From NCBI RefSeq assembly GCF_900110455.1, contig NZ_FOIS01000002.1:248001-312000 (forward strand): 64,000 nucleotides of DNA. Direction: 5' to 3'. Below are positions 21,582 to 30,117 of this stretch, one piece after another; the first letter of the stretch is position 1; each line of letters begins with the position of its first letter. Origin of the DNA: Natrinema salifodinae (GTDB lineage Archaea > Halobacteriota > Halobacteria > Halobacteriales > Natrialbaceae). The notes below the pieces were generated by a model. It saw only the letters and a program-made list of their open reading frames with translations, ran no database searches and had not been told where the DNA came from. The translations under genes and the position numbers were made by a program.

Positions 21582-21938
21582 GGGTACTCTCTCGATCGGT
21601 CGACCCGCGTAGATCCTCTCAGAGGCGGCTTTCTGTCGTCACGACGGCGGATTCGGGGTCAGCTATCGTCGATGATGGGTGGGGTCGAGCGGGCAACACC
21701 TACTGCTCGTCAATGAGCGGCGCGTACCGGTCCCGTGGCGGTTCACCGACCGTCGCGCAGCACGAGTAATCGCGTACTGTCGCGACTCGTGCGAGCGAAA
21801 CTGTCCGTCACCGAGGAGATAACAGGGAGTTACGCCCCCGAAAATGCAGGCCGCGAGCAAGGGGGCGAGAAACGGAAAACTGTCCCGCGAGACGGCCCCG
21901 CCGACTCAAGTGCGAACCGGTCTCGAGGCCTAGTGACA
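21582..21938. other. Intergenic region upstream of the pentad-repeat gene
   Basis: 357 bases with no convincing gene. One frame joins the downstream gene (from 21735), but its product up to residue 68 is basic and low in acidic residues, so it is probably untranslated. No strong hairpin or repeat was found. The promoter of the next gene should lie near its 3' end. Confidence 0.5.
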
Positions 21939-23264
21939 ATGGCGAACGAGACACCTCCCACCGACCCCGACGCGCCCGATCAGCGACGGATGACGACCGA
22001 TCCCGAACGCATTAGAGAGTGGGCCGAGGCCCGCGACGCCGTGCCGGTCTCGATCCGCGGCGGCGGCAGCGGCGAGGGGCCGACCCACTCGTTCGCACGC
22101 CGCGACGAGATCAGCGAGGATCACGAGGAGTACACCTGGGACGAGTTCGTCGACCGGTTCCGTGACGAGGATCTGGTCTTTGTCTACCACGAGGAGGACG
22201 AACCGAGCGGCGAGGACCTGGGCTTCTTCGAGATGGTCGAGCGCGACCAGGCCTTCGACCGGGCCGATCTCGGCCGCGACGAACTCGAGGACGCGCTCCG
22301 GCGCGGCGAGACGGTGACGACGGAAGTCGTCGAGACGCAGGTGGTCGAGACCGAAATCGTCGAGCGGGACACGATCGAGAGCGAGGTAATCGACACGGAG
22401 TTAGCTGAACGCGAGGTTGTCGATTCCGAACTGCTGAGCCGCGACGTCGTCGAGACGGAGTTCGTCGCCGACGACCGGCTCGAGGTGACCGTCGACGAGA
22501 CGCGCCTAGACACGATCGAGGAGATCGAACGCTACATCGTCGAGAGCCGCGTCGTCGACGTCGACATCGAACAGGACGAGGCGATCGAGAGCGACGAGAT
22601 CGAGACGGACATCGAACTCGAGAGCGTCCAGCGCTCGATCCTCGAGAGCGACGTCGTCCGCTCGGAGGTGACGACCGACGAGGTGCTCGACCGGGAGGTC
22701 ATCCAGAGCCAGCGCACCGAAGGCGACGCCGTTCGGAGCGAACTCATCGAGCGGCGGATCGTCGAGGAAGAACTGAGCGATCGGTTGCGGATGACCTACC
22801 TCCTCGAGGAGTCCGAACTGATCGAATCCGAGCTCATCGGCAGCGACGTGATCGAGGGCGAGATCATCGACGCCGACGAGTACGGAGCCGCCGAGAGCAG
22901 CGAGATGGGTGCCGAAGCGACCGGTGCCGGCGACGACGCGATGGCGGACGCCGACGTCGGAACCGAACCCGGCGCCGGTGCCGGGGCCGAGACCGGCACC
23001 GAAGCGACCGGCGAGGCGGGCGCGTCGGCGATCGAACTCTCGCGGGACGATCAGGGGAAGGCCGTCCTCGACGAATCGGGCCAGCAGATCGGTATGGTCG
23101 CCGAGATCGAGGGGCAGACGGCCTACATCGATCCGGAGCCGGGGCTGACGGATCGGCTCAAAGCGCGCCTCGATTGGGGCGGCCACGGCGACGACGACTA
23201 TCCGGTCGACGCCTCACAGATCAAAGAGATCACGGACGACGAGGTCGTCGTCCGCAGCGAGTAA
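21939..23264 (+). CDS. Pentad-repeat acidic protein with PRC-barrel-like C-terminus
   Basis: A 441-residue soluble acidic protein that I do not recognise as a whole. Residues 1-75 include the module EYTWDEFVDRFRDEDLVFVY. Residues about 124-316 are nearly forty tandem five-residue units of the form [VIL]-[VI]-[ED]-[TSR]-[ED], for example VVETE IVERD TIESE VIDTE. An Ala/Gly/Thr-rich linker follows, then residues 365-441 (KAVLDESGQQIGMVAEIEG, AYIDPEPGLTDRLKARLDWG) look like a PRC-barrel. The pentads differ from classic A(D/N)Lxx repeats because two adjacent positions are hydrophobic. Some stress proteins (YsnF/DUF2382) pair a PRC-barrel with Val/Glu-rich strands, which is the nearest comparison I can make. 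Role unknown. Confidence 0.75.
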   Translation: MANETPPTDPDAPDQRRMTTDPERIREWAEARDAVPVSIRGGGSGEGPTHSFARRDEISEDHEEYTWDEFVDRFRDEDLVFVYHEEDEPSGEDLGFFEMVERDQAFDRADLGRDELEDALRRGETVTTEVVETQVVETEIVERDTIESEVIDTELAEREVVDSELLSRDVVETEFVADDRLEVTVDETRLDTIEEIERYIVESRVVDVDIEQDEAIESDEIETDIELESVQRSILESDVVRSEVTTDEVLDREVIQSQRTEGDAVRSELIERRIVEEELSDRLRMTYLLEESELIESELIGSDVIEGEIIDADEYGAAESSEMGAEATGAGDDAMADADVGTEPGAGAGAETGTEATGEAGASAIELSRDDQGKAVLDESGQQIGMVAEIEGQTAYIDPEPGLTDRLKARLDWGGHGDDDYPVDASQIKEITDDEVVVRSE

Positions 23265-25913: not shown

Positions 25914-27278
25914 TCATTCGTCCGTCGCTTCTTCGGACTCCTCTTCCTCTTCCGGCGTGTCCGAGGTGTCGCTGTCGACCCGACGGCTGACGTCGACCTG
26001 GTAGTTCCCGAGAATATCGCGCCCGAGTAAGACGGGGTAATCCATGTGGCTGCGGTCCTCGACGCTCGCCGTGACGGTGTGTTGGTTGCCGCCGACGCCG
26101 ACCACGACGTCCACAACGGGCCGGCTCCTGGACTGCTTGCTGCTTCCCGACCGAATGCGGGTGATCGACTTGATCGGGCCGGCACCGATGTCAGCGGCCA
26201 GGCTCGTGTCGATGCTGGTCCGGGTCGCGCCCGTGTCGGACTTGGCGACCACCGACGTCGAACCGCTGGTCCCCGAAAGAACGATCTCCTCGGTGTAGCC
26301 GATCACCGCCGGCTCCACGTCCTGTGCCACCGCCTCGTGGGGCTGGGCCGTCGGCCGAGAGTCGTCGAGGACGTTCGCGAGGTCCTCGACGCGCTCGTCG
26401 TCGACCTCGCCGCCGGCGCGGTCGATCGCCAGGCGGGCGATGTAGGGCGCGGGGCTGACCTGGGTCGCCTGGTAGAGACCCTTGAACCCTGCTGTCGGGT
26501 TGACTTCGAGGACGAACCAGCCCTCGTCGCCCTCGACGAGGTCGACGCCGGCGTAGTCGAGGCCGATGACGTCGGTTGCCCGGCGGGCCATGTCGGCGGC
26601 CTCCTCGGGGAGGTCGTCGGTCGCGTTCTCGACGGAGCCGCCAAGCGCGACGTTGGTCCGCCAGTCGTTGTCCGGCGCGTAGCGGTACATCGCGCCGACG
26701 ATCTCGTCGCCGACGACGTAGACGCGCAGATCGCGGTTGCGGACGTTCTCCTGGCTGACGAGTTCCTGGAGGAAGGCGTACCGGTTGCCCACCTTCGCGT
26801 TGACGGGGTCGTCGGGGCCGACCTTCCAAGTCCCGCCGCCGTGGGTCCCGATCGCGGTCTTGTAGACGGCCTCGTCGCCGTATCGCTCCCGGACGGCGTT
26901 TAACTGGTCGCCGCTGAGCGCGAGCGTGACGTCGGGGACCCGGACGTCGTTCGACGCGAGCGCCGTCGCCGTCGAGAGCTTGTGGATGGCCGTCATCACC
27001 GCGCTCGGTTCGTTGAGCGTCGGCACGAGCCGCGAGAACGCGTTTACGAGCCCGAGCTCCTCGGCCGGCTGTTCGGTGTTCGACAACAGCATTCGGTTCG
27101 CGAGCACGTCGACCGACGGCTCGAGGACGGCGCTGCCGTCGTTGACGCTGATCGACGTGTTCTCGGTCCGGAGCCACTCGGTGTCGTGGCCGAGGTCTTC
27201 GACGGCGTTGAGGATCGCTTTCGTTTCCTTGCTCGTGTGAAGGCTCAGCACCCCGACGGTAACGGGATCGGCGGCCAT
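25914..27278 (-). CDS. RimK-type ATP-grasp ligase fused to retropepsin-like (RimB-type) domain
   Basis: A 454-residue two-domain protein. Residues 1-300 are an ATP-grasp amino-acid ligase of the RimK/LysX kind: THGGGTWKVG as nucleotide loop and FVLEVNPTAGFKG with metal ligands E258 and N260. Residues about 325-430 are an aspartyl-protease fold of the ATP-dependent zinc protease/RimB family: VAKSDTGATRTSI with D348, then DYPVLLGRDILGNY. The last 20 residues are nearly all Glu/Asp. In bacteria RimK adds glutamates to ribosomal protein S6 and RimB trims them, so one chain may hold both activities; that is inference. ATACTTATCA on the minus strand (27301-27310) gives a leaderless promoter. Confidence 0.85.
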   Translation of the reverse strand: MAADPVTVGVLSLHTSKETKAILNAVEDLGHDTEWLRTENTSISVNDGSAVLEPSVDVLANRMLLSNTEQPAEELGLVNAFSRLVPTLNEPSAVMTAIHKLSTATALASNDVRVPDVTLALSGDQLNAVRERYGDEAVYKTAIGTHGGGTWKVGPDDPVNAKVGNRYAFLQELVSQENVRNRDLRVYVVGDEIVGAMYRYAPDNDWRTNVALGGSVENATDDLPEEAADMARRATDVIGLDYAGVDLVEGDEGWFVLEVNPTAGFKGLYQATQVSPAPYIARLAIDRAGGEVDDERVEDLANVLDDSRPTAQPHEAVAQDVEPAVIGYTEEIVLSGTSGSTSVVAKSDTGATRTSIDTSLAADIGAGPIKSITRIRSGSSKQSRSRPVVDVVVGVGGNQHTVTASVEDRSHMDYPVLLGRDILGNYQVDVSRRVDSDTSDTPEEEEESEEATDE

Positions 27279-27401: not shown

Positions 27402-28868
27402 TTAGCCGATGACCGACCGCACCTGATTGGGATCGACCAGGCCGCTGAGCACCGCGAGGACCCCCCAGGTGACGGCCCCGACGGCGATCGCCCCAAACAG
27501 CATGAGCAGGTTCGAGACCAGCGGCGTCACGAGCAACACGGCGATCGCCATCACACCCGTGATCCCGCAGACGAGTCCGGTCGTGCGGGCGAGTCGCCTG
27601 ACGTTCAGCCGCAACTCGGTGTGGACGATGTAGAGGTTCACCGCCACGTACACCGAGTGGGTCGCCACCGTCGCGGCGGCCGCGCCGATGACCCCGACCG
27701 TCGGGATCAGGATGATGTTCAGCACGAGGTTGGCGACGGCCGTCCCGCCTTTCGCGATGGCCCGCTCGCGGGCGCGACCGAGGTAATCGAGACTGTCGCT
27801 GGTCAGGTTCGTGATCGCCTGCAACACGACGAAGCCCGCGAGCACCTGCAGGACCGGAACGGCGCCCGCGTAGTCGGCCCCGAACACCATCGTCAGGAAC
27901 GGGCCCGCGACGATCGCGAGTCCGACCGCCGCCGGGATGTAGAGCAACAGGACGTTCGTCAGCGACGTCTCGTAGATCCGCCTGGCCTCGTCGAGTTGGC
28001 CGGCGGCCTTCTGCTCGCCGAAGTTCGGCGAGATGGTGAACCCGAGCGATTCGGCGGGCGCGAGTACGAAGTCCGTGACCTGCTTCCCGAGGGTGTAGAA
28101 CCCGACCGCGGCCGGGTTGAGGAAGACGCCGATGAGGACCGTGTCGATCTGCTTGTCGATGACGTTCGCGCTCCGGGTCGCGGTCAGCGGGAGACTGTAC
28201 TCCAGCAGCCGGCGAGAAAGTCCCTCCTCGTACTCCTCGGCCGCATCGTAGCGCTTGTAGAATCCCGTGTAGAGGATTCCGAGTCCGATGGCGCCGGCGA
28301 TGGCGTAGCCGATGATGTATCCGAAGAACGCGCCGAGCGCGCCCATTCCCAGGAGCACGAACGCGACGGAAAAGACCAGGCGACCTGCGCCGCTGATCGC
28401 CTGGACGATGGCGCTGTAGCCGAGGTGGTTGAACCCCTGAAACGACACCTGCGAGAACGTGCTCGCGGAGTAGACGACGAGGTAGAGCGCGCCGGCGGCG
28501 AGGAACGGGGCCGCTCCCGGATCACCGAGCGCGATCGCGATCCACTCGTGGAAGAGCACCAGAACGTAGGCGACGAACGCGAGCAAGACGAGTTTCGCCG
28601 TGATCGTCGTCTTGATGAGGTGGGGAATCTGACCCGCATCCGTCTCGCGATATTCGGAGATGTAGCGGGCGACGGACTTGCTGAGGCCGAGATCCGCGAA
28701 CAGCTGGACGACGGTCAACACCCCGATTGCCCAGTACAGCGCGCCGTACCCGTCCGGATTGAGGTACCGCGCTAACACGAACATTAACAGCGCGCTCGAC
28801 GCCATGTAGATGGCGCGCGCGACGAGCGTTGCCTTGAAGCCGCTGACGATGTGATCCTCCCTGTTCAT
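27402..28868 (-). CDS. Polysaccharide flippase (Wzx/MATE-like)
   Basis: A 488-residue polytopic protein with about 12-14 hydrophobic helices, beginning FKATLVARAIYMASSALLMF and ARYLNPDGYGALYWAIGVL, the usual opening of the polysaccharide-transport (MOP/Wzx) flippases. These move lipid-linked oligosaccharides across the membrane, for example in archaeal N-glycosylation or exopolysaccharide export. No glycosyltransferase is nearby, so the substrate is unknown. The gene is single, 123 bases from the RimK fusion, reading the same way; a shared transcript is possible. Confidence 0.9.
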   Translation of the reverse strand: MNREDHIVSGFKATLVARAIYMASSALLMFVLARYLNPDGYGALYWAIGVLTVVQLFADLGLSKSVARYISEYRETDAGQIPHLIKTTITAKLVLLAFVAYVLVLFHEWIAIALGDPGAAPFLAAGALYLVVYSASTFSQVSFQGFNHLGYSAIVQAISGAGRLVFSVAFVLLGMGALGAFFGYIIGYAIAGAIGLGILYTGFYKRYDAAEEYEEGLSRRLLEYSLPLTATRSANVIDKQIDTVLIGVFLNPAAVGFYTLGKQVTDFVLAPAESLGFTISPNFGEQKAAGQLDEARRIYETSLTNVLLLYIPAAVGLAIVAGPFLTMVFGADYAGAVPVLQVLAGFVVLQAITNLTSDSLDYLGRARERAIAKGGTAVANLVLNIILIPTVGVIGAAAATVATHSVYVAVNLYIVHTELRLNVRRLARTTGLVCGITGVMAIAVLLVTPLVSNLLMLFGAIAVGAVTWGVLAVLSGLVDPNQVRSVIG

Positions 28869-29188: not shown

Positions 29189-29941
29189 CTAGAGGTACGA
29201 GGCGTCCCACCGCGTCGCCTTCCGCCGGTTGCCGCAGCTGTTACACTCGATCCGACCCATCGCGTCCATCGCGTTGTCGATCGAATCGCAGTTGCCGCAG
29301 AACCAAGCGTAGCGATCGTCGCGGTCCGCGCTCTTGTAGGCGGTGTAAAACAGCGACTTCGAACCGCGGGCAGCCTCGCCGTAGCTCACGTAGACCGTCT
29401 CGCCGTCGACCGAGACTTCGTCGATCGCGCCCCACTCGCCGTCGTCTTCGAGGTCGCTCTCGACGTAGACGTTCTCAGTGAAGGTCTCCGACCCGATCTC
29501 GACCTCGCGCTGACCGGCGTGCTCGAAGCCGTGATCCCGGTAGAACTGGTTGCCCCCTTCGTTGTCCTCCAAGACGAAACACTGGATCTGCTCTGCGCCC
29601 TCGTCGAGCAGACGCTCGCGAGTGTGGACCAGCAGGCGCACGCCCGTCCCCCCGCCGCGGTGGTCCGAGTGGACGTGCAGCCAGAGGAGTTGCCCGGTGT
29701 CGGCCCGCTGCCCGACCAGTTCGCTCTCGGAGAAGGCGACGACCTCGCCGTCGCGTTCGACGACGAGGAAGAGCGCTCGGTCGTCGTCGAGTTCGTCGGA
29801 GAACGAATCGCCGTACCACTGCTCGATCGCGTCGTCGATAGTGTCCTCGTCTAAGAAGTCCGTGTACGTAGAGTTCAGCGAGTCGCGAGCGATCGAGCGA
29901 ATCGCGTCGGTATCTGCATCGGTCGCCTCTCGAATCTCCAT
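29189..29941 (-). CDS. GNAT acetyltransferase with C-terminal zinc-ribbon domain
   Basis: A 250-residue protein. Residues 1-145 are a GNAT fold (MEIREATDADTDAIRSIA, then the acetyl-CoA loop HSDHRGGGTGVRLLVHTRE and FYRDHGFE). Residues 165-250 are a second domain ending in a four-Cys ribbon, CGNC...CNSC, which from memory matches a haloarchaeal DUF5816-type region. The acyl acceptor is unknown. The ATG at 29941 follows GATACAAAA (29962-29970), a TATA-like box about 25 bases upstream on the minus strand; the frame above it is rejected. Confidence 0.85.
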   Translation of the reverse strand: MEIREATDADTDAIRSIARDSLNSTYTDFLDEDTIDDAIEQWYGDSFSDELDDDRALFLVVERDGEVVAFSESELVGQRADTGQLLWLHVHSDHRGGGTGVRLLVHTRERLLDEGAEQIQCFVLEDNEGGNQFYRDHGFEHAGQREVEIGSETFTENVYVESDLEDDGEWGAIDEVSVDGETVYVSYGEAARGSKSLFYTAYKSADRDDRYAWFCGNCDSIDNAMDAMGRIECNSCGNRRKATRWDASYL

Positions 29942-30117
29942 GCATGTTAACACCATTCCCAGATACAAAACGTATGCCCACGGCCGCAGATTCTGCCGAT
30001 CAGTGTGGAGTCGAACGTCGCCTTTTGTCGTACAAAGCGGCACGGAACGGGCGCAAAGCGCGTGAAGGGGGAAGATTCACGTCGCTGCTCCCGGAGAACG
30101 TGAAATAAGAGACTGCC

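Follow-up and report, generated by a model that had tools for sequence, protein, structure and literature searches.

The window, as the whole 64,000-nucleotide stretch of DNA analysed here is called, carries on its reverse strand a 454-aa open reading frame free of internal stop codons (25914-27278), in which a RimK-type ligase is fused to a C-terminal retropepsin domain. The name RIMKB is used for it here and its features are collected in Table 1. The preliminary description of this DNA had reported a complete N-terminal ATP-grasp ligase and a complete C-terminal DTGA domain, a RimK-like and a RimB-like enzyme in a single chain, and this observation is real: both halves pass family cut-offs, E258, N260 and D348 lie at the positions given for them and are invariant in a 20-sequence alignment, and the pairing of ligase and retropepsin is supported by the domain scores and active-site residues. 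A chance fusion or an assembly join was excluded, because the single chain is conserved across the Halobacteria. By manual reading of the search table, the fusion is present in 268 of the 292 genomes of this class (matches of 1.3e-111 or better, with 265 of the 268 at 2.6e-177 or better), and the 24 genomes taken to be without it, also by hand, have a best E-value worse than 1e-100. It is thus a core gene of the Halobacteria that has been repeatedly lost. Across the phylum, 196 genomes were sampled, of which 32 belong to the Halobacteria by manual reading; the matches listed from outside the class (E limit 1e-15) cover ligase positions only.

Table 1. Features of the RIMKB locus in the window, and of related copies and remnants in other genomes.
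Feature	Position	Strand	Basis or remark
RIMKB, RimK-type ligase fused to C-terminal retropepsin domain, 454 aa	25914..27278	-	Pfam, TIGR00768
ATP-grasp RimK-family ligase domain, residues 6-290	26409..27263	-	TIGR00768; Z 28.3 to RimK 7qyr
E258-V-N260, equivalent to E. coli RimK E260/N262	26499..26507	-	Alignment to E. coli RimK; invariant in 20 sequences
Inter-domain linker, residues 291-321	26316..26408	-	Residues 316-320 pLDDT <50; variable in 20-sequence alignment
Retropepsin-fold protease domain, residues 322-433	25980..26315	-	PF05618; profile matches RloA2 9g59, RloA 9g58; fold
D348-T-G-A active-site motif of protease domain	26226..26237	-	D348, T349 invariant in 20 sequences; DTG in 52/52 of panel
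Flap-like loop, residues 369-384	26127..26174	-	pLDDT <50; deleted in three DTA copies
Disordered acidic tail, residues 434-454, Glu-ended	25917..25979	-	pLDDT <50 from 436; terminal Glu in 50/52 panel genomes
Flippase-like gene, context outside the module	27402..28868	-	Polysacc_synt; between the pair in the window's family
GNAT + DUF5816 gene, context outside the module, start uncertain	29189..29950	-	Between the pair in the window's family
Partner, AstE/AspA-type zinc hydrolase, 365 aa	30118..31215	+	PF24827 8.1e-49; co-occurrence, adjacency
DTA copy	L063:1236-2528		No flap, no terminal Glu
DTA copy	L064:8983-10272		No flap, no terminal Glu
DTA copy of L176			No flap, no terminal Glu
Fusion remnant	G110:C1:472815-473018		Adjoins AstE
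Fusion remnant	G167:C44:204641-204766		Adjoins AstE
Fusion remnant	G183:C2:243987-244112		Adjoins AstE

Membership of the ligase half in the RimK family is given by TIGR00768, which matches residues 9-281 with 154.3 bits against a cut-off of 143.4, and the Pfam RimK family PF08443 matches residues 99-275 (7.6e-23). Scores against the equivalog models all fall below their cut-offs, with 68.7 against 331 bits for the S6--L-glutamate ligase RimK (NF007764), 124.2 against 350 for MptN and 123.4 against 275.6 for LysX, and F420 CofF is likewise not reached. Alignment to E. coli RimK (L155) pairs R64, K100, K141, R189, R211, D248, E260 and N262 of that enzyme with R62 and the ATP-grasp catalytic residues K100, K140, R185, R207, D246, E258 and N260 of the fusion, respectively, and S7 with S12. 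The bound glutamate chain of P. aeruginosa RimK is touched by S7, R8, R64, S14, R189 and N262 (PMC10092738). Two of these residues near the chain in the E. coli and Pseudomonas enzymes, R8 and S14, are replaced in the fusion by L13 and E18, and part of the glutamate-chain pocket therefore differs from that of RimK. Structure prediction had been put forward as a check on both active sites. A full-length, single-chain AlphaFold2 model built from the 20-sequence alignment (mean pLDDT 79.7, pTM 0.72, with the flap at 369-384 and the tail at 436-454 below a pLDDT of 50) gives the ligase half (6-290) a RimK fold, which superposes on P. aeruginosa RimK 7qyr with a Z-score of 28.3 and an rmsd of 2.4 over 275 residues; ArgX 3vpb (Z 28.1), RimK 7qys (Z 28.0) and LysX 3vpd (Z 27.9) are nearly tied with it.

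A small-molecule substrate is possible, since the next-best ligase scores are those of MptN and LysX, neither of which reaches its cut-off. The ligase would then make or lengthen a small molecule, for instance the glutamate chain of a coenzyme or an amino acid held on a carrier protein, and the role of the retropepsin domain would be to process that carrier or to regulate the ligase. Such an activity would agree with the second-best NCBIfam scores, with the fit of ArgX and LysX, which is like that of RimK (Z 28.1 and 27.9 against 28.3), and with the existence of a RimK-like polyglutamate side chain for methylofuran (PMC8141765). The archaeal ligases LysX/ArgX and MptN do have the fold of the fusion's ligase with similar fold scores, but the MptN, LysX and CofF equivalog cut-offs are all missed, the matches listed outside the class include no protease domain, and neither a flap-bearing DTG retropepsin nor a conserved Glu end would be expected in such an enzyme, which makes this role improbable.

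The protease half is matched by PF05618 over residues 368-433 (41.6 bits against a gathering threshold of 27). When a profile of the domain was compared with solved structures, RloA2 9g59, Lpg0085 2pma and RloA 9g58 were among the matches, and in the alignments shown the DTGA of the fusion aligns with the DTGA of these proteins. The equivalog model of RimB (NF052261) gives 16.3 bits against a cut-off of 200, and the NCBIfam RloA models also stay below theirs. As the VIA-align comparison of the full-length model listed ligase-domain matches only, the protease domain was folded alone, as a single chain. The best matches of the resulting moderate model (mean pLDDT 71.2) are retropepsins, namely Ddi1 2i1a (Z 10.6) and RloA2 9g59 (Z 10.5), with retroviral proteases lower and Foldseek matches at E 2e-4 and weaker, so that the prediction returns a retropepsin fold for this half. 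The DTG motif is kept in 52 of 52 further genomes from 51 genera, D348 and T349 being invariant in the 20-sequence alignment, and the domain thus has both the motif and the fold of the RimB/RloA retropepsins. The name carried by PF05618, "ATP-dependent zinc protease", was set aside because the fold and the DTG are those of a retropepsin.

Transcribed divergently from the fusion is a gene for an AstE/AspA-type zinc hydrolase, which scores 166.2 bits against PF24827 (gathering threshold 25) and whose zinc ligands H75, E78 and H161 (HxxE...H) are kept in 33 of 33 orthologues. It has PF24827 in common with the AstE/AspA/DoeB deacylases but falls below the equivalog cut-offs of DoeB (TIGR02994, 95.4 against 402.7 bits), AstE and aspartoacylase. 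A search with this protein covered 76 genomes, 52 with the fusion (49 canonical, 3 divergent) and 24 without. An orthologue (4.5e-147 or better) was found in all 52 of the former and in 3 of the 24 latter, the other 21 having only a distant AstE paralogue (2.4e-41 or weaker). The three exceptions (G110, G167, G183) each have an intact AstE orthologue with a short leftover piece of the fusion next to it, an arrangement which suggests that the fusion was lost first, and recently. Spacing was read in 49 genomes outside the window's family for which a fusion position was printed, which are not a random draw: the two genes are divergent and head-to-head at less than 400 bp in 41, divergent at approximately 1.4 kb in two, in tandem at 2.5-3.1 kb in three, divergent at 37 kb in one and on different contigs in two. 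The AstE/AspA-type gene is a co-inherited partner of the fusion, and we infer for its product a biochemical role in glutamate chains. The flippase-like gene does not lie between the two in L050, L052, L054 and L055, where AstE is directly head-to-head with the fusion. A Salinarchaeum-like genome (G260:C1, also L053) has both genes, 37 kb apart.

Several genomes hold a second copy, approximately 50-60% identical. In a small, unweighted comparison of 21 aligned sequences that included the divergent copies, R62, K140, R185 and R207 are kept throughout, and D246, E258 and N260 in all except the broken L183. Three copies (L063 and L064, both from Haloferax, and L176) have DTA instead of DTG and lack both the flap and the terminal Glu; both Haloferax genomes also hold a canonical copy, which lies head-to-head with AstE at a distance of 133-158 bp. 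Judging by their sequences, the DTA copies are probably natural variants in which the protease is dead and the ligase intact. Copies with DTG or DSG are mostly Glu-ended, the exceptions being L082, L172 and L180. Stretches that match the protease half only and end in Glu-Glu occur in L188 (140 aa) and L080 (245 aa) and are possible stand-alone retropepsins. The divergent copies with a degenerate protease and the AstE/AspA neighbour are both absent from the preliminary description.

It had also been suggested that the Glu-rich tail of the enzyme could be a substrate, and the tail does stand as a candidate, with a terminal Glu conserved at the end of a variable segment. In a panel of 52 genomes from 51 genera (L082-L133, with g41 represented twice by G041 and G137), 50 proteins have Glu and none has Asp at the final position, and 39 end in Glu-Glu; the two with other ends are L082 and L085. 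Past the last strand, the panel tails comprise 9-27 residues, with 299 Glu and 144 Asp in total, and are hypervariable in sequence, the terminal Glu being their conserved element. An earlier, Natrialbaceae-heavy set has Glu-Glu ends in 59 of 66 distinct proteins. A background of mechanical ORF calls (at least 120 aa, high GC3, taken from the window and L031-L066 with the fusion and duplicates removed) gave 87 Glu-ended, 28 Asp-ended and 4 Glu-Glu-ended proteins among 398. By hand arithmetic assuming independence, which kinship weakens, drawing 50 Glu out of 50 from the Glu/Asp mix of the tails has a chance of about 3e-9. The window's own tail (25914-25980, reverse strand) ends in SEEATDE, in which ATDE extends past the Glu run where relatives and congeners stop.

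Acidic proteins are typical of haloarchaea, and this acidity could by itself account for the terminal Glu, which would then be a salt adaptation, a chance product or a stability signal and would be uninformative on the chemistry. The 87 Glu-ended proteins of the background are in line with that, as is KatG in the same loci, Glu-ended in 22 of 23 cases, yet in KatG the whole DRFDLE end is conserved. Such an origin would sit poorly with the absence of Asp ends from the panel despite the abundance of Asp in the tails, and with Glu-Glu ends in 39 of 52 proteins against 4 of 398 in the background, counts which kinship within the panel keeps from being fully independent; we consider it unlikely.

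The S6 protein of E. coli, the known acceptor of RimK, ends in GDSEE, RimB leaves 4-5 Glu (PMC7343187) and five contiguous Glu suffice for RimB cleavage (PMC11957791). On this analogy, a tail whose encoded sequence already supplies one to five Glu would be a plausible primer for a glutamate chain. In three divergent copies (L076, L175, L184), however, the tail has only a few residues, although it still ends in Glu-Glu, and its reach in cis is doubtful for that reason. Tails this short are better suited to docking near the protease than to extending as far as the ligase site. This would be expected if both activities were directed at some other protein, whether ribosomal or not, and the enzyme's Glu end were a pseudo-substrate that occupies the site of the protease or of the ligase and inhibits it until a real chain competes. 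Bacterial RimK and RimB do act in trans, on S6 (PMC7343187). A search for bS6 (PF01250) had no match in the window genome, while being positive in 10 of 14 control genomes, and S6 was accordingly rejected as the target in this genome. Against the pseudo-substrate explanation stand this absence of the bacterial target and the fact that docking does not itself require Glu at the last position; we regard the explanation as possible but rather doubtful.

On balance, we lean towards a module that writes, cuts and trims C-terminal glutamate chains, for which the Glu of the enzyme's own tail is the best candidate acceptor. RIMKB would be a two-domain enzyme, a RimK-family ATP-grasp alpha-L-glutamate ligase followed by a RimB/RloA-type retropepsin. 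The ligase would add Glu onto a C-terminal Glu at the expense of ATP, the retropepsin would act as a dimer of two chains to cut Glu chains that are sufficiently long, and the divergently transcribed hydrolase would trim or salvage the products. The acceptor would be the Glu of the flexible tail, in cis or on a neighbouring chain, alone or besides other protein targets. This module is favoured by the RimK score, fold and residues, by the retropepsin DTG, flap region and fold, by the published poly-Glu cleavage of bacterial relatives, by the Glu ends and their likeness to that of E. coli S6, by the absence of bS6 from the window genome and by the co-occurrence and head-to-head position of AstE; counting against it are a bacterial fusion that cut poly-Glu but did not glutamylate RpsF, the replacement of R8 and S14, the MptN and LysX scores, the two non-Glu tails, the very short tails of some divergent copies, the Glu ends of KatG and the two Flavobacterium RimBK loci that have no AstE nearby. 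If it is correct, C-terminal glutamylation, so far seen on one bacterial ribosomal protein, would be near-universal in an archaeal class, where a single chain would bring along its own candidate acceptor and be inherited together with a third enzyme, and it would give a role to RimK and retropepsins where bS6 is absent, a point raised in PMC11957791. A more tentative extension, to which we assign a distinctly lower probability, is a self-priming poly-alpha-glutamate machine in which the ligase extends its own Glu, the retropepsin clips the chain when its length suffices and the AstE-type partner degrades the oligo-Glu thus released. That would amount to a closed cycle of writer, cutter and eraser, independent of any other protein, through which a salt-in cell could adjust its glutamate or charge. 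An earlier proposal that an ATP-grasp enzyme modifies itself concerns CDC123 (PMC4431377).

The fusion as such is not new, since bacterial RimB-RimK hybrids have been published. These RimBK proteins were reported in 2025 in a survey of 5959 bacterial accessions, mostly from Flavobacteriales and Rhodobacterales and with Desulfotalea psychrophila DP2392 as an example; the text of that article nowhere contains the word archaea (PMC11957791). The preliminary description therefore needs correction where it treats RimK and RimB as separate in bacteria, which holds for Pseudomonas, but its ligase-retropepsin chain and Glu-rich tail stand. Poly-Glu is cleaved by bacterial RimB, RloA and a RimBK hybrid (PMC11957791, PMC12239564), and no glutamylation of the tested RpsF by the bacterial RimBK was observed (PMC11957791). 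Ligase and retropepsin share one chain in both groups, but the protease is N-terminal in bacterial RimBK (also in Flavobacterium L067) and C-terminal in the haloarchaeal protein. In a FastTree phylogeny of about 30 ligase sequences, indicative only as E. coli RimK and RimBK are represented by a single sequence each, the Flavobacterium ligase groups with E. coli RimK, whereas those of the haloarchaea fall into a separate clade with full support. Neither the domain order nor this small tree supports a shared origin, and given the reversed protease position and the separate ligase clade the haloarchaeal protein looks like the product of its own fusion event, with the domains joined the other way round. 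No AstE lies within approximately 9 kb of two Flavobacterium RimBK loci, in contrast to the haloarchaeal fusions with their AstE partner, and the sole Flavobacterium copy inspected is not Glu-ended, unlike 50 of the 52 panel proteins.

Pseudomonas RimK and RimB belong to the same two domain families as the fusion and have its catalytic residues, but are two proteins that work with RimA on the target RpsF (PMC7343187, PMC11957791), whereas the window genome is without a bS6 match. The RloA/RloC locus of Pseudomonas likewise pairs a retropepsin with an ATP-grasp protein, and RloA cuts poly-Glu (PMC12239564); RloA is, however, secreted and separate, and the retropepsin of the fusion scores below the RloA cut-offs. 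Glutamate-modification genes, KEGG K05844 included, are commoner in brackish genomes (PMC10219603), and PMC3403918 touches on glutamylation in a reference only. A haloarchaeal RimK-retropepsin was not found in the literature searched, in which coverage of subscription journals was thin. Work by Iyer and colleagues from 2009 probably discusses such neighbourhoods, and an earlier mention of the fusion is possible. Elsewhere in the window, upstream of KatG, the forward-strand ORF at 21735-23264 contains an extended tract of acidic repeats resembling VVETE/VVESE.
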